Shown: positions 10,351-19,836 of the stretch, in pieces
Position numbering within the stretch: position 1 is the stretch's first letter
Layout of the letters: each line of letters begins with the position of its first letter
Notes under the pieces: model-generated
The model's input: only the letters and a program-made list of their open reading frames with translations
What the model was told of the DNA's origin: nothing
Database searches by the model: none
Assembly: GCA_024123955.1 (NCBI GenBank)
Contig: CP099652.1
Coordinates: forward strand, 434,001-498,000
Length of the DNA: 64,000 nt
Direction: 5' to 3'
From: Oxalobacteraceae bacterium OTU3CINTB1
GTDB taxonomy: Bacteria > Pseudomonadota > Gammaproteobacteria > Burkholderiales > Burkholderiaceae_D
Translations under genes and position numbers: made by a program

Positions 10351-10507
10351 CGAAGACCTGCCACCCCGGAATTGGCATTGGTACAACACCGTTGCTAATT
10401 TCCAATTTATTTTTCATTTTGAACCGTTTACCAGTGGTTCCCGTCGCGCTTTGAGGTATTGTTACTTCAGTTATGCGAGTAGGCAAAATAGCAAAACGGG
10501 GACAAAT

Positions 10508-10699
10508 ATGAAAAAGGCATTCTTTTTGGTTGGGGTGGTGGCGCTGGCTGGCTGCGCGTCGAATGTTCGGCATCAATCGCTGACGGCGGAGTCGGTCGCG
10601 GGTAACAGGACAGCCGCTGTCACGCCCAAAGACACTATCTTTCGCGACGTTCCGCTCAAACCGATGACGGCCAGCCAAAGCGCGGCCAGGATGAACTGA
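10508..10699 (+). CDS. small lipoprotein (63 aa)
   Basis: The 63-aa product has a Lys-rich start, a hydrophobic stretch FFLVGVVALAG and a lipobox LAGC, so the Cys at about residue 17 would be lipidated. The mature part is short, with no recognised domain. The upstream 150 bp is AT-rich and likely carries its promoter. Its TGA directly abuts the stop codon of the convergent speD gene (TGATCA). The function is unknown. Confidence 0.75.
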   Translation: MKKAFFLVGVVALAGCASNVRHQSLTAESVAGNRTAAVTPKDTIFRDVPLKPMTASQSAARMN

Positions 10700-11104
10700 T
10701 CAGTCGAAGCCCGGCGGCGCTCGCCGAACTGTATTGATGTGGCTGGACGCAGGCGCCAAGGCCTGTTCGATGATAGTGAGCGCCAACTCAGGCTGCGCGC
10801 TGCCGCACATAAAGATGTCGGCGGCCGCAAAACCACACTCCGGCCACGTATGGATCGAGATATGCGACTCGGCCAGCAACACCACCCCGGTCACACCCTG
10901 GCCTTCGCCAAATCCGTGAAAATGGCTATGCAGGACATGCGCGTGCGCCGCCTCGGCCGCCGCCCGCAGTAACTTTTCCAGCGCCTCGCAGCTGCTTAAT
11001 TTTTCAGCATCGATTCCGTTCAGATCGGCCAGCACATGAATGCCGACCGGTTGGTGAACGGCCGGCAAAGCCACGCCGGCCTCCTGTAGCGTTTCGCGTT
11101 TCAC
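10700..11104 (-). CDS. speD: S-adenosylmethionine decarboxylase proenzyme
   Basis: It makes decarboxylated SAM, the aminopropyl donor for spermidine-type polyamines. The 134-aa proenzyme belongs to the short prokaryotic class. The self-cleavage site is in ESHISIHTWPE, with cleavage expected between E79 and S80 so that S80 becomes the pyruvoyl cofactor. A catalytic-type Cys follows in DIFMCG. The start is GTG, overlapping the stop of the preceding Gly-rich gene (GTGA). It is the last gene of the DUF350 operon, and the partner synthase is encoded divergently at 14302. Confidence 0.95.
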   Translation of the reverse strand: MKRETLQEAGVALPAVHQPVGIHVLADLNGIDAEKLSSCEALEKLLRAAAEAAHAHVLHSHFHGFGEGQGVTGVVLLAESHISIHTWPECGFAAADIFMCGSAQPELALTIIEQALAPASSHINTVRRAPPGFD

Positions 11105-11274
11105 TTGTGGCCTCCGCCGCCGGAGCCGCCGCCAAAACTGCCGCCGCCGCCGCCCGTGTGCGAACTCCAGGTGCTGCCACGAGAGGCCGCACCGCCACCG
11201 CCGACGAGCCGCCCCCAGCTGTTGCAGGAGGTCAGGACGGTAACAACGACCGCATAAATGAAAAATTTCGTCAT
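11101..11274 (-). CDS. 57-aa Gly-rich lipoprotein-like protein
   Basis: This short gene fills the space between the DUF4178 gene and speD exactly. Its ATG overlaps the DUF4178 stop (ATGA) and its TGA overlaps the speD GTG start. The product starts MTKFFIYAVVVTVLTSC, a single hydrophobic signal ending in a possible lipobox (LTSC). About 40 residues rich in Gly and Ser follow, with runs GGGG and GGGGGSFGGGSGGGG, ending HK. The tight translational coupling supports it as a real gene. The function is unknown; it may be a flexible membrane-tethered partner. Confidence 0.75.
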   Translation of the reverse strand: MTKFFIYAVVVTVLTSCNSWGRLVGGGGAASRGSTWSSHTGGGGGSFGGGSGGGGHK

Positions 11275-12764
11275 GATTTGTCGTTGCTATCTAAAAATGT
11301 CGCCGGCAGGTAGATCGCCAGGGCGCCGATCGCGCTCATGAACCAGGTGCCGGAAAAATTCGTCAGCAGCGGTATCGCATTGATTACCAGCATGAATCCG
11401 ATGATGTATTTGGCGGCGTTGCGGTAGCGGTTTTTGACCGTCAGCGTGCCGCCGGCTGCTTTCGCGGGCATCGCGCTGCCATGGAATTGGGCGCCGAACC
11501 AGGCCTTCAGCTGGTCGACCGCGACCGGCGCGGAGCGCGACCACGTCATTTCCTGTTCGCTGGTCTCGCATGCCAGCCGGATCTGGCCGGCCTGGAATTC
11601 CTCGACCTGCGTATGGTCGCCAACGGCCACGCGCCAGTTGAAGGCGCCGGCGGCGAAGGTGACTTCCGAACCGTAGGCGTACAGCAGCTGGTACTGCGCT
11701 TTTTCCACCACCACGTTTTGCTGTCCCGGCGTGTAGACGACCGGCCACTCCGACATCACCGTGGCGCCGGACCAGCCCTCGTCCGTCTCCACCAGCCATG
11801 AGAAGCCGGCGCGCGCGCCGTACATCAGGTACTCGGTCCACTCGGTGCCCTCGTCGTCCATGCGCCGCATCATGCCGATGATGGTGAAATCCTGTTTGTT
11901 GATGTTGGCCGTGGCGCCCAGATCGAGCGTCGGCCGCGCCGCGGTCACGCGTTCGCCGGCCGCCAGCACCGTCGCCTCGGTGCCCGCCGCGTCGATTTGC
12001 GTCTGGCACGCCGGGCACACCAGCGTCGTCGTCACACCAGGCAGATATTTGATGCCGCTGCCGCAGGACGGGCAATCGAGCGCATCGAGCTTGCCGCGAT
12101 AACGCCCAGCGGAGCGATGGATGGTCTCGTCGTCGCGCAATAGCTGCATGCGCAGGCTGTCGAGCGTGACCGCCATGCCGGTGTAGATGATCGGGCGTGG
12201 CGAATCCGAGCAATCGAGGGTGATGAACTCCGTGCCGCGCCGGAAGTCGGCGACCTTGCTCTGATAGCCTTCGCCCACCTTGAACGGCAACTCGCCCTGG
12301 CCGCCAATGCAATCGGCCAAGCGGATCTCGGCGGCGATATACGGCGCGCCGTTGATGCCATAGCTGGCGCCGGGGCGCAGCTGTTCGAACGCCGGCACGT
12401 TGATCTCGTGCGGCGTGATGCCGTTGCCCTTGTATTCTGCGGTGACGGTGTACATGCCGGACGAATCGCCCAGCCACGAGGTGGCGCCGTCGTCGAACAG
12501 CAGATACCACTCGTTCCACATGCCGGCCGAATAGCGCAACTGGATGCGGCCGACGACCGTGAATTGCCGCTTACCGAGCACGCCGGAGGCGCCGATCTGG
12601 ATCGGCGAATAGTCCTCCAGCACGGAGGACATCTTGCCCAGGTCTTTGACCGAGTCGGCGTCTTTGAGCACGCTGGTGCCGCAATATTCGCAGACGGCCA
12701 TGACCGAGGCGTGCGAGCGGAATTTGACTTCCGCGCCGCAGCTGGGACAGGAAACGATTTGCAT
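11271..12764 (-). CDS. DUF4178 protein with two zinc ribbons
   Basis: This 497-aa protein has an internal duplication. The first half starts with a zinc ribbon (CPSC at 5-8, CEYC at 26-29), then a DUF4178 beta-rich domain with FTVVGRIQLRYSAGMWNEWYLLFDDG. The second half repeats this with CPSC and CPAC, then FTIIGMMRRMDDEGTEWTEYLMY. The C-terminus has one or two transmembrane segments. DUF4178 genes recur next to DUF350, SPFH and polyamine genes. It is the third gene of a five-gene operon; the biochemical role is not known. Confidence 0.85.
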   Translation of the reverse strand: MQIVSCPSCGAEVKFRSHASVMAVCEYCGTSVLKDADSVKDLGKMSSVLEDYSPIQIGASGVLGKRQFTVVGRIQLRYSAGMWNEWYLLFDDGATSWLGDSSGMYTVTAEYKGNGITPHEINVPAFEQLRPGASYGINGAPYIAAEIRLADCIGGQGELPFKVGEGYQSKVADFRRGTEFITLDCSDSPRPIIYTGMAVTLDSLRMQLLRDDETIHRSAGRYRGKLDALDCPSCGSGIKYLPGVTTTLVCPACQTQIDAAGTEATVLAAGERVTAARPTLDLGATANINKQDFTIIGMMRRMDDEGTEWTEYLMYGARAGFSWLVETDEGWSGATVMSEWPVVYTPGQQNVVVEKAQYQLLYAYGSEVTFAAGAFNWRVAVGDHTQVEEFQAGQIRLACETSEQEMTWSRSAPVAVDQLKAWFGAQFHGSAMPAKAAGGTLTVKNRYRNAAKYIIGFMLVINAIPLLTNFSGTWFMSAIGALAIYLPATFLDSNDKS

Positions 12765-12773
12765 GTGTCCTTA

Positions 12774-13808
12774 TCAGCCGATCAGTTTTTTGAGCAGTTC
12801 GGCCTTGGTGCTGTCGTAGTCGGCGGCCGAGATCAGGCCTTTGTCGAGCAGTCCCTTGAGCTTTTCCAGGCGGTTTTCGATCGAGTCCTCGGCCGGCGCG
12901 GCCGGTGCGACAGGCGCCGCGGCCGCAGGCGCCGCCGCGCCGGCCATGGCCTGCCCCATCATCTGGCCGACCGTCATGCCGGCGCCTAGGCCGGCGCCGA
13001 TGCCCGCCAGGCCGCCTTCGTTCGACGCGGCCATCGGGATCGCGCTGGCCACCTGGTAGCGGGTGAAGCCGGCCATTTTGTCGGCGCTCATGCCGCCCTT
13101 CATGCCGGCGGAGATGCGCTCGTCCAGCGCGGCCTGCAGTTCCTCCGGCAGGCTGACGCTGGCGACGTTGAATTCATCGAGTCCGATGCCATAGCGGCCG
13201 AACGCGGTGGACAGGTCGCCCTTGACCTGCTGCGCCATCAGCGCCTGGTTGGCCGCCATATCGAGGAACGGCACCTGCGCGCTACCCAGGGAGCTGGCCA
13301 TGGTCGCCATCAGGATGCCGCGCAGCTGCTCCTCCACCTCGTCGCGGGTGTAGACCTCGCGCGTGCCGCTGATCTCCTTGAAGAACAGGCGCGGATCGGC
13401 CACACGGTACGAATACATGCCGAAGGCGCGCACGCGCACCATGTCGAAGTCCTTGTCGCGGATCGTGATCGGCTGCGGCGTGCCCCATTTACGGCCGGTC
13501 TGCACGCGGGTGCTGAAAAAATAGACATCCGACTTGAACGGCGAGTCGAACAGCTTGTCCCAGTTTTTCAGGTTGGTCAGGATCGGCAGGGTTTGCGTGG
13601 TCAGCTTGTGGGTGCCGGGGCCGAAGACGTCGGCGACCTGGCCCTCGTTGACGAACACCGCCATCTGCGACTCGCGCACCACCAGCACGCCGCCGTTCTG
13701 GATCTCGAAATCCTGCATCGGATAGCGCCAGGCCAGTACGCCGTCGACTTCCTCGTTCCACTGCAGTACGTCGATAAACTGCTTCTTGATAAAGCTGCCG
13801 ATGCCCAT
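12774..13808 (-). CDS. SPFH/Band-7 (virion core-like, YdjI type) protein with SHOCT tail
   Basis: This 344-aa protein has an SPFH-type N-terminal and central domain (GGVLVVRESQMAVFVNEGQV through SLPEELQAALDERISAGM). A Gly/Met/Ala-rich linker follows at about residues 255-300, then a C-terminal SHOCT motif (ENRLEKLKGLLDKGLISAADYDSTKAELLKKL). Relatives such as B. subtilis YdjI work with PspA-like or membrane-stress proteins. It sits between DUF350 and DUF4178 in one operon and probably scaffolds a membrane complex; that role is inferred. Confidence 0.85.
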   Translation of the reverse strand: MGIGSFIKKQFIDVLQWNEEVDGVLAWRYPMQDFEIQNGGVLVVRESQMAVFVNEGQVADVFGPGTHKLTTQTLPILTNLKNWDKLFDSPFKSDVYFFSTRVQTGRKWGTPQPITIRDKDFDMVRVRAFGMYSYRVADPRLFFKEISGTREVYTRDEVEEQLRGILMATMASSLGSAQVPFLDMAANQALMAQQVKGDLSTAFGRYGIGLDEFNVASVSLPEELQAALDERISAGMKGGMSADKMAGFTRYQVASAIPMAASNEGGLAGIGAGLGAGMTVGQMMGQAMAGAAAPAAAAPVAPAAPAEDSIENRLEKLKGLLDKGLISAADYDSTKAELLKKLIG

Positions 13809-13835
13809 GATGGTCCTCGCTTTGGTTTGGCTAAA

Positions 13836-14222
13836 TTAGGAAATGCAGGCGCCGTTGATGACGCCGATGGAAATGGAGATCGCGCCCAGCAGGCCGCCGA
13901 ATGCGGTGTTGTTCGCCTCGATCTGGTCCTTCGACATGTTCAGCACCCGCGTCGTGATCGCATACGCCAGCACCTGCACCAGCATCGCGCCGAAGGCCCA
14001 GGCGAAGAACTCCTGGTAATTCGCAGTATGCATCAGCGCCGAACCGACGGTGATTGAAAAACCGATCAACGCGCCGCCCAGCGATAGCGCCGCCGCCTGG
14101 TTGCCCTGGCGGATCAGCAGCACCTCGTTGGCCGGCGTCGTGCGCGTGTAGACGACGAAAAAGACGGCCAGCAGCACGGCGGCCAGTAAAAGGTGAATCA
14201 GATAGTTTAGGATGGCGGGCAC
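13836..14222 (-). CDS. DUF350 integral membrane protein
   Basis: The 128-aa product has four predicted transmembrane helices: LIHLLLAAVLLAVFFVVYTR, the stretch from AAALSLGGALIGFSITVGSA, the stretch around FAWAFGAMLVQVLAYAI, and AFGGLLGAISISIGVINGA. This matches DUF350 (YjfL-like) proteins, which often neighbour polyamine and PspA-type genes. It is the first gene of the minus-strand operon that ends with speD. It shares an approximately 80-bp divergent promoter region with the spermidine synthase gene. The transport or channel role is unproven. Confidence 0.85.
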   Translation of the reverse strand: MPAILNYLIHLLLAAVLLAVFFVVYTRTTPANEVLLIRQGNQAAALSLGGALIGFSITVGSALMHTANYQEFFAWAFGAMLVQVLAYAITTRVLNMSKDQIEANNTAFGGLLGAISISIGVINGACIS

Positions 14223-14301
14223 GGCGCGCTCTCAGTGGGGTAAAGTGTTGAACCTGTGGTTAAGTTACTAACGCTGAAGCATATTAGTGCAAAAGAGCCA
14301 A
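14223..14301. promoter_or_regulatory. shared divergent promoter region of the polyamine module
   Basis: These 79 bp separate the DUF350 start (minus) from the spermidine synthase start (plus). They must hold both promoters, so the two arms are likely co-regulated. The stretch is AT-richer than its surroundings. I cannot name hexamers with confidence. Confidence 0.5.
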
Positions 14302-15813
14302 ATGAACAAAAAGATTCTTATATTGTCGGTGTTTGTGGTCGCTTCCTGCGGCCTGGCGTACGAATTAATCGCTGGCGCGCTGTCCAGCTACCTGCTGGGC
14401 GACTCCATCCTGCAGTTCTCCACCGTGATCGGCTGCTACCTGTTCGCGATGGGCGTCGGCGCCCACTTTTCCAAGTATGTGCTTGACGAGGATGTGCTGG
14501 CGCGCTTTGTCGATATCGAACTGGCGGTCGGCCTGGTGGGCGGGCTGTCGGCGGCGATCCTGTTCCTGACGTTTTCGTGGATGGCGGCGCCGTTCCGCAC
14601 CATGCTGTACGTGATGGTGTTCCTGATCGGCGCCTTCGTCGGCATGGAGGTGCCGCTGGTGATGCGCGCGCTGAACGCGCGCCAGACCGGCTTCAGTGAA
14701 ATCGTCAGCAAGGTGCTGACCTTCGATTACCTGGGCGCGCTGGCGGTGTCGCTCTTGTTCCCGCTGGTGCTGGCGCCGACCCTGGGCCTGGTGCGCACCG
14801 GTTTCCTGTTCGGGATGCTCAACGTCGGCGTCGCCCTGTGGACAATTCGCGTGTTCCGCACAGAGCTTAAAAACGTCACCGGCCGCATGCTGCGCGCGTC
14901 GGCGGTGATGTTCGTGCTGGTGGCCGGCTTCGCGTCGGCCGACAAGCTCACTTACTGGGGCGAGCATGGCCTGTTCGGCGATGAAATCGTCTTCGCCACC
15001 ACCACGCCTTATCAGCGACTGGTCGTCACGCGCTGGAAGGACGATCTGCGCCTGTACATCAACGGTAACCTGCAGTTCTCGTCGCGCGACGAGTACCGCT
15101 ATCACGAGGCGCTGGTGCATCCGGTGCTGCAGCCCTTGCCGTGGGCGAAGCGGGTGCTGGTGCTGGGCGGCGGCGACGGTCTGGCGCTGCGCGAGATCCT
15201 GCGCTACAAGAATATCGAGCATGTCACGCTGGTCGACCTGGACCCGGCCATGACCGGCGCCTTCACCAACCGTCCGGAGCTGGTCAAGCTGAATGGCGGC
15301 TCGTTCAGCGACAAGCGCGTACGCGTGATCAACGCCGACGCGGCCCTCTGGCTGCGCGAGAACGACGACATGTTCGACGCCATCATCGTCGACTTCCCCG
15401 ATCCGTCCAGTTTCGCGCTCGGCAAGCTGTACTCGGTGCCCTTCTACGGCATGGTGCGCAAACACCTCGCCGCCAACGGCTTGATGACGGTGCAATCGAC
15501 GTCGCCGTTCTTCGCCCCGCACGCCTACTGGACCATCGACGCCACCTTGCGCGAAGTCGGCATGAAGACCTATCCTTATCATGCCTATGTGCCGTCGTTC
15601 GGCGAATGGGGCTTCATACTCGCCACGCCCCAGGCGCAGTACACGCCGCCCGCCGAATACCGTTTGCCGATGCGCTACCTGAACGCCGACACCACGCGCG
15701 AGATGTTCATCTTCCCGCCGGATATGAAGCGGCTGCCGATGGAGCCCAACCGGCTCAATACACAATCGCTGGTGCACGAGTTCGAGCAGGACTGGCGGCG
15801 GGTGATACGCTGA
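14302..15813 (+). CDS. membrane-embedded spermidine synthase (polyamine aminopropyltransferase)
   Basis: It would transfer an aminopropyl group from decarboxylated SAM to a diamine such as putrescine. The first about 200 residues hold about seven hydrophobic helices, starting MNKKILILSVFVVASCGLAY. The C-terminal half is a SpeE-type domain with LVLGGGDGLALREIL (SAM site), VTLVDLDPAM and the DAIIVDFPDPS motif. I use the ATG at 14302; a GTG lies 15 bp upstream. It is divergent from the operon that encodes its substrate-making partner SpeD. The FAD oxidoreductase start overlaps its stop (TGATG). Confidence 0.9.
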   Translation: MNKKILILSVFVVASCGLAYELIAGALSSYLLGDSILQFSTVIGCYLFAMGVGAHFSKYVLDEDVLARFVDIELAVGLVGGLSAAILFLTFSWMAAPFRTMLYVMVFLIGAFVGMEVPLVMRALNARQTGFSEIVSKVLTFDYLGALAVSLLFPLVLAPTLGLVRTGFLFGMLNVGVALWTIRVFRTELKNVTGRMLRASAVMFVLVAGFASADKLTYWGEHGLFGDEIVFATTTPYQRLVVTRWKDDLRLYINGNLQFSSRDEYRYHEALVHPVLQPLPWAKRVLVLGGGDGLALREILRYKNIEHVTLVDLDPAMTGAFTNRPELVKLNGGSFSDKRVRVINADAALWLRENDDMFDAIIVDFPDPSSFALGKLYSVPFYGMVRKHLAANGLMTVQSTSPFFAPHAYWTIDATLREVGMKTYPYHAYVPSFGEWGFILATPQAQYTPPAEYRLPMRYLNADTTREMFIFPPDMKRLPMEPNRLNTQSLVHEFEQDWRRVIR

Positions 15814-17447
15814 TGCTGCGCCGATCCTTTCTTGTGTGGGCCGGCGCCACCGGCCTGGCGGCGGCGGGTACCGTCGCGGCGTTCCAGCGCTGGCAGGAGA
15901 TCACGCCCACGCTGCACTATCCGGGCCGCGACGAGGGCCACTTCCTGCGCGACCTGCGTGGCAAGCCGCTGCCGCTGCCGCCGCCGTCGCAGGTGCTGCA
16001 AACCGATATCGCCATCCTCGGTTCCGGCATCGCCGGCCTGACCGCCGCGTGGAAGCTCAAAAAGCTCGGCAAGACCGACATGCTGATGGTGGACGGCCCG
16101 CAACCGCACGGCAACGCCGCCGGCGGCGCCTTCGGCGAGTACGAGTATCCGACCGGCGCCCACTATCTGCCGCTGCCGTCGCCGGAATCGGTGCACGTGC
16201 GCGAGATCCTGGCCGACCTGGGCATCATCCAGAAAGACCCGATGGGCGAAAAGCCCTACTACGACGAGCTCTTCATCCTGCATGCGCCGGAGGAGCGGCT
16301 GCTGTACAACGGCCAGTGGCAGGAAGGTTTCATGCCGACCGAGGGCGTGCCGCAATGGGAGATCGACGAGCACACGCGCTTTTTCGCAGAGGTGGAACGG
16401 CTGCGGCAAACCCACGGCGCGGACGGCCGGCGCGTGTTCGTGTTCCCGACCGTGATGTCGTCGGAAGACCCGCAGTGGCAGGCGCTGGACCGCATCACCC
16501 TCAAGCAGTGGCTGGAGCAAAGCGGCTACCGCTCGCCTACCCTGCACTGGTATCTGAACTACTGCTGCCGCGACGACTACGGCACCCGCTACGACAAGGT
16601 TTCGGCCTGGGCCGGCCTGCACTACTACTGCAGCCGCTGGGGACAGGCCGCCAACGCTGGCAACGGCACCTGGCTGACGTGGCCGGGCGGCCTGCAACCG
16701 CTGGCCACCGGCATGGAGCGCGCCTCGGGCATCAAGCGCTTGGCCGGCACGGTGGTGTCGCTGAAAAAAACGGCGGACGGCGTCGAAGCCTTGTGCTTCC
16801 AGCTCGAAAACGGCAAACCGGCCACTTATCTGGTGCGCGCGCGCAAAGCCATCTGCGCGATGCCGGTGTATGTGGCCGCGCGGGTTGTGGATAACATCGC
16901 CGCCTACGGTTTCGATCCGGCCAAACATATCCCGGAATACGCGCCGTGGATGGTGGCCAATTTCCTGCTCAAGCGTTTTCCGGAGGAGTTGCAGGAGGGC
17001 GCGCATTCGCCGCCGCTGTCGTGGGACAACGTCGTCTACAGCGAGCCGGGATTGGGTTATGTCGTCTCCACCCACCAGGATATCCGCGTGCGGCCGCCGG
17101 AAAAGACCGTTTTCAGCGCCTATATCGCGCTGTCCGACCGCAAGCCGAGCAGCGCCCGGCACTGGATGGCAGCCGCCAAGCCGGAGGAGTTGCTGGCGCT
17201 GGCCAGCGCCGACCTTAAAACCGCTTACGGCGCGCAGTTCGCGTCCTGCGTCGAGCGGGTCGACATCACCCTGCGCGGCCACGCGATGGCAGCCCCATGG
17301 CCCAACTTCCGCGCCAACGCCGGCATGAAGGCCTTGCGCGAGGTGGACGGGCCGATTCTGTTCGCGCACGCCGACCTGTCGGGCTTCTCGGTGTTCGAGG
17401 AAGCGGCTTGGTGGGGCTACCGGGCAGCCGGACTGGCGGCGAAATGA
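15813..17447 (+). CDS. FAD-dependent oxidoreductase (amine-oxidase-like) with Tat-type signal
   Basis: This 544-aa flavoprotein begins MLRRSFLVWAGATGLAAAG, a twin-arginine motif (RRSFL) with a hydrophobic core, so it is probably exported folded. The dinucleotide-binding motif AILGSGIAGLTAAWKL lies at about residues 68-83. The C-terminal LFAHADLSGFSVFEEAAWWGYRAA fits the FAD-closing region of flavin amine oxidases. It is translationally coupled to the membrane spermidine synthase, so a polyamine or derived amine is a sensible but unproven substrate. No other family assignment fits better by eye. Confidence 0.8.
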   Translation: MLRRSFLVWAGATGLAAAGTVAAFQRWQEITPTLHYPGRDEGHFLRDLRGKPLPLPPPSQVLQTDIAILGSGIAGLTAAWKLKKLGKTDMLMVDGPQPHGNAAGGAFGEYEYPTGAHYLPLPSPESVHVREILADLGIIQKDPMGEKPYYDELFILHAPEERLLYNGQWQEGFMPTEGVPQWEIDEHTRFFAEVERLRQTHGADGRRVFVFPTVMSSEDPQWQALDRITLKQWLEQSGYRSPTLHWYLNYCCRDDYGTRYDKVSAWAGLHYYCSRWGQAANAGNGTWLTWPGGLQPLATGMERASGIKRLAGTVVSLKKTADGVEALCFQLENGKPATYLVRARKAICAMPVYVAARVVDNIAAYGFDPAKHIPEYAPWMVANFLLKRFPEELQEGAHSPPLSWDNVVYSEPGLGYVVSTHQDIRVRPPEKTVFSAYIALSDRKPSSARHWMAAAKPEELLALASADLKTAYGAQFASCVERVDITLRGHAMAAPWPNFRANAGMKALREVDGPILFAHADLSGFSVFEEAAWWGYRAAGLAAK

Positions 17448-17483
17448 TATTCTAGCTAAACCATATAAATCGAATCGACCGCC

Positions 17484-18326
<843 letters not shown>

Positions 18327-18381: not shown

Positions 18382-19836
18382 ATGCTGCAACTGAAAGACC
18401 CCACACTGCTGCGCCAGCAAGCCTACATCAACGGCGTCTGGGCCGACGCCGACAACGGCGAGACCCATCCGGTAACCAATCCGGCCACCGGCGAGCAAAT
18501 CGGCACCGTGCCGCGCATGGGCGCTGCCGAAACCCGGCGCGCCATCGACGCCGCGAACGCCGCCTGGCCGGCCTGGCGCAAAAAGACCGCCAAGGAGCGC
18601 GCCGCCATTCTGCGCAAGTGGAATGACCTGATCCTGGAGAACACCGACGACCTGGCGCTGCTGATGACGGCCGAGCAGGGCAAGCCGCTGACCGAGTCGC
18701 GCGGCGAGGTGGCCTACGGCGCCTCGTTCATCGAATGGTTTGGCGAGGAAGCCAAGCGCGTGGCCGGCGAGACGCTGGCGTCGCCCTGGCCGGACCGCCG
18801 CCTGCTGGTGACCAAGGAGCCGATCGGCGTGTGCGCGGCGATCACGCCGTGGAACTTCCCGATCGCGATGATCACCCGCAAGGCCGGCCCCGCGCTGGCG
18901 GCCGGCTGCCCGATGGTGCTGAAACCTGCCGAGTCCACGCCGTATTGCGCGCTGGCGCTGGCCGAACTGGCCGAACGCGCTGGCGTGCCGCCGGGCGTGT
19001 TCAGCGTGCTGACCGGCGCTTCCAAGGATATCGGCGGTGAAATGACGTCCAACCCGATCGTGCGCAAGCTGACCTTCACCGGTTCGACCGCCATCGGCCG
19101 GCTGCTGATGGAGCAAAGCGCGCCGACGATTAAAAAGCTGTCGCTGGAATTGGGCGGCAACGCGCCGTTCATCGTGTTCGACGACGCCGACCTCGATGCG
19201 GCCGTCGAAGGCGCGATCGCCTCCAAGTACCGCAACGCCGGCCAGACCTGCGTGTGCGCCAACCGCCTGTATGTGCAGGACGGGGTGTACGAACAATTCG
19301 CCGAAAAACTGGTGGCCGCCGTCGAAAAACTCAAGGTCGGCAACGGCGTCGAGGAGGGCGTGACGCAAGGCCCGCTGATCGACGAGAAGGCCGTCCAGAA
19401 GGTCGAGGAGCACATCGCCGACGCGCTGTCCAAAGGCGGCCGCCTGCTCACCGGCGGCAAGCGCCACCCACTGGGCCACAGCTTCTTCCAGCCGACCGTC
19501 ATCGCCGATGTCGGCAACGACATGCTGGTCGCCGGCGAGGAGACCTTCGGCCCGCTGGCGCCGCTGTTCCGCTTCAAGACCGACGAGGAAGTCATCGCGC
19601 TGGCCAACGATACGGAGTTCGGCCTGGCCAGCTATTTCTACTCGCGCGATATTGGCCGGATCTGGCGCGTGGCCGAGGGACTCGAATGCGGCATCGTCGG
19701 CGTCAATACGGGCCTGATCTCCACCGAAGTGGCGCCGTTTGGTGGCGTCAAGCAGTCGGGCCTGGGTCGCGAAGGCTCGCAACACGGCATCGACGAGTAT
19801 CTGGTGGTGAAGTACATTTGCCTCGGCGGCGTTTAG
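18382..19836 (+). CDS. gabD: NAD(P)-dependent succinate-semialdehyde dehydrogenase
   Basis: It oxidises succinic semialdehyde to succinate, the last step of GABA and putrescine breakdown. The 484-aa ALDH contains TPWNFPIAMITRKAGPALAAGC, the catalytic Glu in ELGGN (E256) and the nucleophile in NAGQTC (C290). The C-terminal FGGVKQSGLGREGSQHGIDEY is the GabD signature. The ribosome site AGGAGGAC is strong. Placement shortly after the polyamine module fits a polyamine catabolic link, though a separate promoter in the 55-bp gap is possible. Confidence 0.93.
   Translation: MLQLKDPTLLRQQAYINGVWADADNGETHPVTNPATGEQIGTVPRMGAAETRRAIDAANAAWPAWRKKTAKERAAILRKWNDLILENTDDLALLMTAEQGKPLTESRGEVAYGASFIEWFGEEAKRVAGETLASPWPDRRLLVTKEPIGVCAAITPWNFPIAMITRKAGPALAAGCPMVLKPAESTPYCALALAELAERAGVPPGVFSVLTGASKDIGGEMTSNPIVRKLTFTGSTAIGRLLMEQSAPTIKKLSLELGGNAPFIVFDDADLDAAVEGAIASKYRNAGQTCVCANRLYVQDGVYEQFAEKLVAAVEKLKVGNGVEEGVTQGPLIDEKAVQKVEEHIADALSKGGRLLTGGKRHPLGHSFFQPTVIADVGNDMLVAGEETFGPLAPLFRFKTDEEVIALANDTEFGLASYFYSRDIGRIWRVAEGLECGIVGVNTGLISTEVAPFGGVKQSGLGREGSQHGIDEYLVVKYICLGGV

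Follow-up and report, generated by a model that had tools for sequence, protein, structure and literature searches.

A conserved C-terminal lysine as candidate acceptor in a membrane aminopropyltransferase module of Oxalobacteraceae bacterium OTU3CINTB1 and its relatives

The window analysed here, a stretch of 64,000 nucleotides from Oxalobacteraceae bacterium OTU3CINTB1 (assembly GCA_024123955.1, contig CP099652.1, positions 434,001 to 498,000), contains a seven-gene module with two divergent arms. One arm encodes a membrane-bound aminopropyltransferase (APT) and a flavin amine oxidase-like protein, and the other encodes DUF350, SPFH and DUF4178 proteins, a small exported tail protein and the S-adenosylmethionine (AdoMet) decarboxylase SpeD. 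Close relatives of this gene set have already been published; what is added here is the lysine-ended tail, the part of this cluster type that was overlooked before. We propose that the module is a protein-tail aminopropylation system in which the C-terminal lysine of the tail protein serves as the acceptor, a reading that, judged from the sequences, appears to us about evenly balanced between right and wrong.

In this copy, the 57-aa (amino acid) tail protein has an N-terminal membrane segment and a Gly/Ser-rich tail that ends in GGHK. Relatives were collected in one scan of species genomes, which gave at least 592 pattern matches and at least 590 relatives, and the best 80 were retained as loci. 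Among the 76 loci that matched the DUF4178 profile (64 of the best 80 and 12 of 19 further regions), lysine is the C-terminal residue in all 76, carried by a separate short membrane-anchored protein in 68 of them and by the C-terminus of the DUF4178 protein in eight. The last two residues are HK in 65 loci, GK in nine and IK in two. In the fused form (L118–L122, L055, L057 and L125), the lysine end stands on the DUF4178 C-terminus behind a hydrophobic segment. In four of these loci (L118–L120 and L122), and by eye in L121, the DUF350 protein is only half-length, at 72–74 aa.

The picking of tails preferred Lys-ended frames and thus favoured lysine, and therefore a control downstream of other genes and a truncated-profile test were included. 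Lysine ends were found downstream of SPFH in 0 of 68 cases, of APT in 0 of 97, of DUF350 in 0 of 73, of SpeD in 0 of 64 and of the flavoprotein gene in 3 of 65, giving 3 of 367 in total and no His-Lys end among the 367; downstream of DUF4178, lysine ends number 68 of 76 and His-Lys ends 57 of 76. When 34 tail proteins were stripped of their last four residues and made into a profile, the search recovered 130 homologues; the 120 that were listed, many of them close kin, all end in lysine. The final codons vary (CAC or CAT for histidine, AAG or AAA for lysine), as do the stop codons (TGA in 43, TAA in 18 and TAG in seven), so that the conserved thing is the end of the protein and not the DNA. 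An explanation by which the Lys-stop end is forced by overlap with the start of SpeD was rejected, as the lysine is kept without such overlap (L015, L016 and L034), in a locus where no SpeD was found (L047), and before another gene (L073 and L138).

An earlier note on this DNA had described the small protein as a lipoprotein. This is right for the window copy, which has an LTSC lipobox by eye, but a label of conserved lipoprotein does not extend to the family: the strict lipobox pattern fits the window copy and one of the 68 separate tail proteins, and the LFSC box of the Burkholderia tail proteins lies outside it. That note passed over the feature in which the protein is most conserved, the lysine at its C-terminus, and with it a possible protein acceptor.

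In an even draw of 299 genomes across the phylum Pseudomonadota, which includes that of the window, full-length APT (one match of at least 412 bits over nearly all 500 profile positions) is present in 31, and the 20 genomes with a DUF4178 match all belong to these 31. A Lys-ended exported or anchored protein is encoded within about 12 kb of the APT gene in 28 of the 31 genomes, at about 10 kb in G207 and nearer in the rest. The carriers of this lysine are unlike one another and include peptides of about 45–68 aa, transmembrane (TM) proteins of 78–100 aa, DUF4178 fusions, and lipoproteins or TM proteins of 311–576 aa. Lineages with PspA or TelA partners, as well as some others, have the 78–100-aa TM carriers or the 311–576-aa carriers, mostly with a lipobox by eye; the bodies of the larger carriers are dissimilar and their ends are rich in Ser, Gly and Arg, for example, RRGK, SRGK, FGGK and RSGK. 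Plasmid stretches have the lysine end in five of the five screened (six were obtained; L141, which has a cut APT gene, lay outside the screen). One stretch with DUF4178 and no APT (L132) has no tail, and another contig of the same genome (L177) has both APT and a Lys-ended protein.

These counts exclude distant membrane proteins that resemble the APT but have a change at one catalytic Asp. Haloarchaeal plasmids carry APT-like copies with 24% identity, one of which (L194:5986–7752) lies beside DUF2617; one catalytic Asp is changed by eye, and no Lys-ended neighbour was seen in one stretch examined of three. The APT-like protein of G001 (L197:8670–10349) is represented by two part matches in one frame and has D367 changed to Val by eye, with no Lys-ended partner in the stretch examined.

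A different tail end accompanies peptide-spermidine ligases. In E. coli K-12, YjfM (L142:12388–13026) ends in HWGG and YgiB (L143:3745–4416) in SMGG; both are DUF1190 proteins with a Ser/Gly-rich tail, and their genes adjoin those of YjfC and YgiC, respectively, which are annotated as peptide-spermidine ligases. This arrangement suggests that the C-terminus of YjfM and YgiB may be the peptide substrate of YjfC and YgiC. A peptide-spermidine ligase is reportedly the subject of a 2023 paper by Pederick. In the phylum-wide sample, DUF1190 gave 42 matches, spread over 39 genomes; a GSP_synth (PF03738) match is present as well in 38 of these genomes. Among the 38 DUF1190 proteins whose ends were examined (that of G271 and three weak ones of G187 were left out), 30 end in GG, four in GS, three in SS, one in GT and none in lysine; one of the GS ends (L192) comes from a genome without GSP_synth. 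The 39 DUF1190 genomes and the 31 APT genomes have no member in common (probability by chance 0.010, uncorrected for kinship), as if the DUF1190 and membrane-APT modules were alternative solutions. The tail end thus co-varies with the enzyme: lysine is found beside an amine-alkylating enzyme and, mostly, glycine beside an amide-forming enzyme that uses a carboxylate. We regard this co-variation as the chief reason to take the tail end for the substrate of the enzyme. The E. coli yjfIJKLMC and ygiBC genes share with the window module an exported Ser/Gly-rich tail protein encoded beside a polyamine enzyme, and the yjf operon additionally shares DUF350 and a PspA-type partner. However, they combine an ATP-grasp amide ligase with a Gly-Gly tail, whereas the window combines an aminopropyltransferase with a Lys tail, and its own genome has no match for GSP_synth or DUF1190. 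PspA, which the earlier note had reported to be absent from this copy, has no match anywhere in the genome either.

The catalytic site of the APT is intact. The APT has about seven hydrophobic segments (residues 1–213) followed by a SpeE-fold catalytic domain; canonical soluble SpeE has no membrane domain, and VIA-align coverage in the fold comparison with SpeE is limited to residues 217–481. The catalytic residues are invariant in 115 of 115 aligned rows, with D292, D364 and D367 all kept, and E116, R122 and D142 of the membrane half are likewise present in all 115. SpeE2 of the Pseudomonas ISS locus, as described in the relevant part of PMC7298707, resembles the window APT in having N-terminal membrane segments and a SpeE-like domain but has T, E and P in place of the catalytic Asp residues. 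The SpeD motif ESHISIHTWPE can be aligned with that of the solved AdoMet decarboxylase 2iii and conforms to the class 1b ESH..HTWPE pattern, and the protein scores above the equivalog cut-off.

The gene set, the conserved terminal lysine, the intact catalytic site, the Tat motif and the co-variation of tail end and enzyme are all features of the sequences themselves. We infer an acceptor, a product, a side of the membrane, a role for the oxidase and an output of the module as follows. SpeD, the sole SpeD of the cell, would produce decarboxylated S-adenosylmethionine (dcSAM) in the cytoplasm, and the membrane APT would transfer the aminopropyl group of dcSAM to the tail protein, onto the side-chain amine of its C-terminal lysine, and not to free putrescine. 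The lysine side chain, -(CH2)4-NH2, corresponds to one half of putrescine, whose pocket in the enzyme could accommodate the threaded Gly/Ser-rich tail. As product we predict a flexible tail, anchored in the membrane, that is capped with N-epsilon-(3-aminopropyl)lysine. This cap would be a hypusine-like mark, perhaps outside the cytoplasm, with a side chain that has one carbon less than that of deoxyhypusine. Oxidation or removal of the cap may fall to the Tat-type flavin amine oxidase, and holding the tail and reading the cap would be the task of a platform in the membrane made up of the SPFH, DUF350 and DUF4178 proteins. Hypusine on eIF5A is also a polyamine-derived alkylation of a lysine amine but differs in that deoxyhypusine synthase attaches an aminobutyl group from spermidine to an internal loop lysine in the cytoplasm.

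In all 115 aligned rows, positive-inside counts place the N-terminus of the APT in the cytoplasm (on average 10.7 Lys and Arg residues inside versus 2.0 outside); if the protein has seven spans, its catalytic domain would then lie outside, on the side proposed for the tail and the Tat enzyme. For the tail, the lipoprotein-like carriers argue for a position outside the cytoplasm; in the 68 separate tail proteins, the N-terminal flank carries more positive charge than the other side in 40, less in 12 and the same in 16, which fits this position only moderately. For the flavoprotein, an outside position is suggested by the Tat motif, RRSFL at the N-terminus, the two arginines of which are present in 69 of 69 rows (in the frame-shifted row L016 this has little meaning). 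This protein has the flavin amine oxidase fold with an FAD Rossmann motif (AlphaFold2 pLDDT 92.4); its best Foldseek match is putrescine oxidase 2yg6 (E-value 2.3e-21, TM-score 0.61 on the query), closely followed by monoamine oxidase, protoporphyrinogen oxidase and SpdH. It may act as an eraser of the cap or as the maker of a reactive aldehyde.

A broader, extracytoplasmic version of the proposal is put forward here only tentatively. The dcSAM would cross the inner membrane by way of the seven-span half of the APT; the SpeE-fold domain, located in the periplasm, would write N-epsilon-(3-aminopropyl)lysine at the C-terminus of an anchored tail protein, and the Tat-exported flavin oxidase would erase it or turn it into a reactive aldehyde. 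Together with the YgiC/YjfC branch, in which Gly-ended tails would be amidated with spermidine, this would make up one wide class of polyamine-capped membrane tails that are read by DUF350, SPFH and PspA complexes.

Several points weigh against aminopropylation of the tail, or against its taking place outside the cytoplasm. The AlphaFold2 model of the APT shows residues 131–184 as one continuous helix, so that six spans with the catalytic domain inside are possible. A catalytic domain outside requires dcSAM to cross the membrane, for which we know of no precedent. Many modules lack the flavin enzyme, which is thus accessory at most; no match to its gene was obtained in either the PspA-type regions or the loci of Psychrobacter. 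Sixteen of the 80 nearest loci have no DUF4178 match in the DNA covered and are uncounted in the lysine statistics, three of them (L054, L065 and L066) being untruncated. Three of the 31 full-length APTs, with their catalytic residues intact, have no Lys-ended protein nearby: one is at a contig edge (L174), one has no recognised partners (L180), and one (L179) is accompanied by DUF2170, PspA and a weak DUF4178 match (18.5 bits), with no DUF350 seen. Two further stretches of the G057 contig contained no plausible tail. A fungal homologue is reported to contribute to spermine, a claim doubted in the relevant passage of PMC12803844; such a role would favour a free polyamine product. A C-terminal lysine can also serve other ends, such as peptidoglycan attachment, sorting or binding.

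In Braun's lipoprotein Lpp, L,D-transpeptidase joins the side-chain amine of the C-terminal lysine to the cell wall. The tail resembles Lpp as a small exported protein with a functional C-terminal lysine, and it could be a peptidoglycan anchor that ties the membrane complex to the wall, with the APT acting elsewhere or lengthening the lysine to tune the linkage. The short exported Lys-ended protein, the lipobox of this copy and the lipoprotein-like appearance, by eye, of most larger carriers are consistent with such an anchor. However, Lpp has no link to polyamine enzymes, whereas the lysine here tracks the APT and is replaced in the partners of the ligase module (Gly-Gly in 30 of 38, lysine in 0 of 38), and we rate the anchor as improbable. 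A somewhat different use of the lysine end, as a recognition signal for the membrane half of the APT, for DUF350 or for a protease, would leave the residue itself unchanged; the lysine end might be a polyamine mimic that gates the enzyme. The variable penultimate residue (His, Gly, Ile or Val) is as expected of short end signals, but the switch to Gly-Gly beside an amide ligase is left unexplained, which makes a recognition signal unlikely in our view, though worth keeping in mind.

The other two alternatives seek the acceptor away from the tail. One of them, which takes up the reading of the earlier note and is close to the view of Ravi 2024, is that the module is an envelope-stress system and that the product of the APT at the membrane is a polyamine, free or modified. 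In its favour are the SpeE fold with all canonical catalytic residues retained, the location of the genome's only SpeD at this locus, and the PspA, TelA or SPFH partners of relatives. The relevant passage of PMC12803844, citing Li 2019, states, however, that bacterial homologues of the membrane-APT fusions have been shown experimentally to be uninvolved in spermidine or spermine synthesis; a modified polyamine product is therefore unlikely, and it would leave the conserved C-terminal lysine unexplained. We accordingly see little probability in this part of the earlier interpretation, while its treatment of the two arms as one unit, the membrane setting of the polyamine enzymes and the occurrence of PspA in relatives stand. 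Finally, the acceptor could be the amine of a membrane lipid, for example, phosphatidylethanolamine, with the lysine tail only a binding or regulatory element. The high conservation of E116, R122 and D142 does suggest that the membrane half of the APT is more than an anchor, but a merely regulatory lysine need not sit exactly at the C-terminus of unlike carriers, and a lipid acceptor seems very unlikely.

The seven genes are located where the earlier note had placed them, with profile hidden Markov model matches and sequence in agreement (Table 1). Its overlapping or tightly spaced minus-strand genes ending with SpeD are borne out by the junctions, which overlap or are short: ATGA joins the DUF4178 and tail genes, and GTGA joins the tail gene and SpeD. 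The same is true of its APT with about seven N-terminal helices, encoded by a gene that overlaps that of a Tat flavoprotein, as seen in the hydrophobic segments, the RRSFL motif and the overlap of the flavoprotein ATG with the APT stop codon. The divergent region has the length given for it, but the promoter assigned to it was not recovered, as a scan of positions 10400–17700 found no sigma-70-like promoter. The SHOCT match of the SPFH protein (26.4 bits) is slightly below the cut-off of 27; in the DUF4178 protein, the zinc-ribbon matches are sub-threshold and the C-terminal region is hydrophobic. The genome has a single SpeD match and a single DUF350 match, both at this locus, as are its two DUF4178 matches; PF01564 gave one strong match, at this locus, and three weak ones, and the APT profile gave one. 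On the same strand, 3' of the flavin enzyme gene, lie genes for PPK2 polyphosphate kinase (17484–18326) and an aldehyde dehydrogenase (18382–19836), the latter of which could in principle take the product of an amine oxidase.

Table 1. Features of the module, in positions of the window
Feature	Position	Strand	Basis
SpeD, class 1b S-adenosylmethionine decarboxylase, 134 aa, putative dcSAM source	10700–11104	-	TIGR03330 equivalog, 124.6 bits (cut-off 75.65)
Small exported tail protein, 57 aa, candidate aminopropyl acceptor	11101–11274	-	sequence
DUF4178 protein, 497 aa, two DUF4178 domains	11271–12764	-	PF13785, 65.7 bits, 2 stretches
SPFH/band-7 protein with C-terminal SHOCT-like domain, 344 aa	12774–13808	-	Band_7_1 (PF13421), 254 bits
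DUF350 (YjfL-type) integral membrane protein, 128 aa, GTG start	13836–14222	-	PF03994, 107 bits
Divergent intergenic region, 79 bp	14223–14301		sequence
Membrane aminopropyltransferase (APT), 503 aa	14302–15813	+	NF002956, 687 bits (cut-off 472)
Tat-type flavin amine oxidase-like protein, 544 aa	15813–17447	+	Amino_oxidase, 22.9 bits (cut-off 19.8)

Across the 80 loci, cut contigs included, the flavoprotein gene was found in 65, DUF4178 in 64, SPFH in 63, DUF350 in 59 and SpeD in 56. In the 44 untruncated loci, defined as having at least 8 kb on either side, at least three of SpeD, DUF4178, SPFH and DUF350 are close to the APT gene in 40, together with the flavoprotein gene in 38, and DUF350 is divergent from APT in 35. 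These rates are biased upward because the 80 loci are the nearest relatives. Among such relatives, the two arms are one conserved unit, well beyond chance, and the 38 of 44 loci agree with the earlier statement that these families recur together and do not show the two arms rarely co-occurring. In distant loci, the genes are often co-directional; a Novosphingobium plasmid, for example, has the order SPFH-DUF4178-DUF4178-tail-DUF350-APT-FAD-SpeD, with FAD denoting the flavoprotein gene. Matches to the flavoprotein and SPFH genes were rarer in the phylum-wide draw, where the profiles used also miss distant DUF350 and DUF4178 proteins. Clustering of neighbouring open reading frames within 7.5 kb in the 80 loci gave clusters present in up to 20 loci, chiefly close relatives, including an Acidobacterial tail (six loci) and a cluster found in 17 loci, seven of them outside the Oxalobacteraceae-like set.

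Related modules elsewhere have PspA or TelA partners. The kinship to PspA-type contexts that the earlier note had pointed out is thus confirmed for the regions examined and agrees with the main text of Ravi 2024. A plasmid of Alteromonas mediterranea (L136:8944–15602) carries a version with the order APT-SpeD-TelA-DUF4178-lipoprotein-DUF350, and the module can therefore be plasmid-borne.

The enzyme pair and its DUF350 partner are familiar. Li and colleagues, writing in Biochem J in 2019, are said to have described AdoMet decarboxylase together with an MFS-SpdSyn fusion and DUF350, and to have proposed a role outside polyamine synthesis with a substrate other than putrescine; thousands of bacterial genomes reportedly have AdoMet decarboxylase and a membrane APT fusion that does not serve spermidine synthesis. 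The window has the same enzyme pair with DUF350, but that work reportedly names no acceptor, whereas a concrete one is proposed here. According to the main text of Ravi 2024 (PMC11237479), operons of a second group encode a 7TM spermidine synthase-like protein, 8TM DUF350, DUF4178, a novel lipoprotein and a CesT/Tir-PspA pair; in a variant of a third group, a band-7-SHOCT protein replaces the PspA pair and is joined by AdoMet decarboxylase and a polyamine oxidase. The proposals made there are that polyamine levels are sensed or that other substrates are aminopropylated. The window combines parts that are spread over these two groups as described in that text. It shares 7TM-APT, DUF350, DUF4178 and an exported protein with the second group, but its DUF350 protein is short (128 aa) and not 8TM, and it has SPFH and no CesT/Tir-PspA pair. 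With the variant it shares AdoMet decarboxylase and an amine oxidase-fold enzyme, a putative polyamine oxidase; the band-7 protein of the variant has 2TM and SHOCT, and that of the window has a Band_7_1 match (254 bits) and a SHOCT match of 26.4 bits against the cut-off of 27. No title or abstract in our literature search describes the C-terminal lysine end, and the word lysine is absent from the main text of PMC11237479, supplements apart.

For the membrane APT fusions, the conserved partner with a C-terminal lysine offers a concrete candidate substrate. If the aminopropylation proposal is true, the lysine cap would correspond in bacteria to hypusine and could be displayed on the membrane's outer face; the recurrence of polyamine enzymes with PspA, SPFH and DUF350 membrane proteins, including those of the E. 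coli yjf operon, would then be easier to understand.

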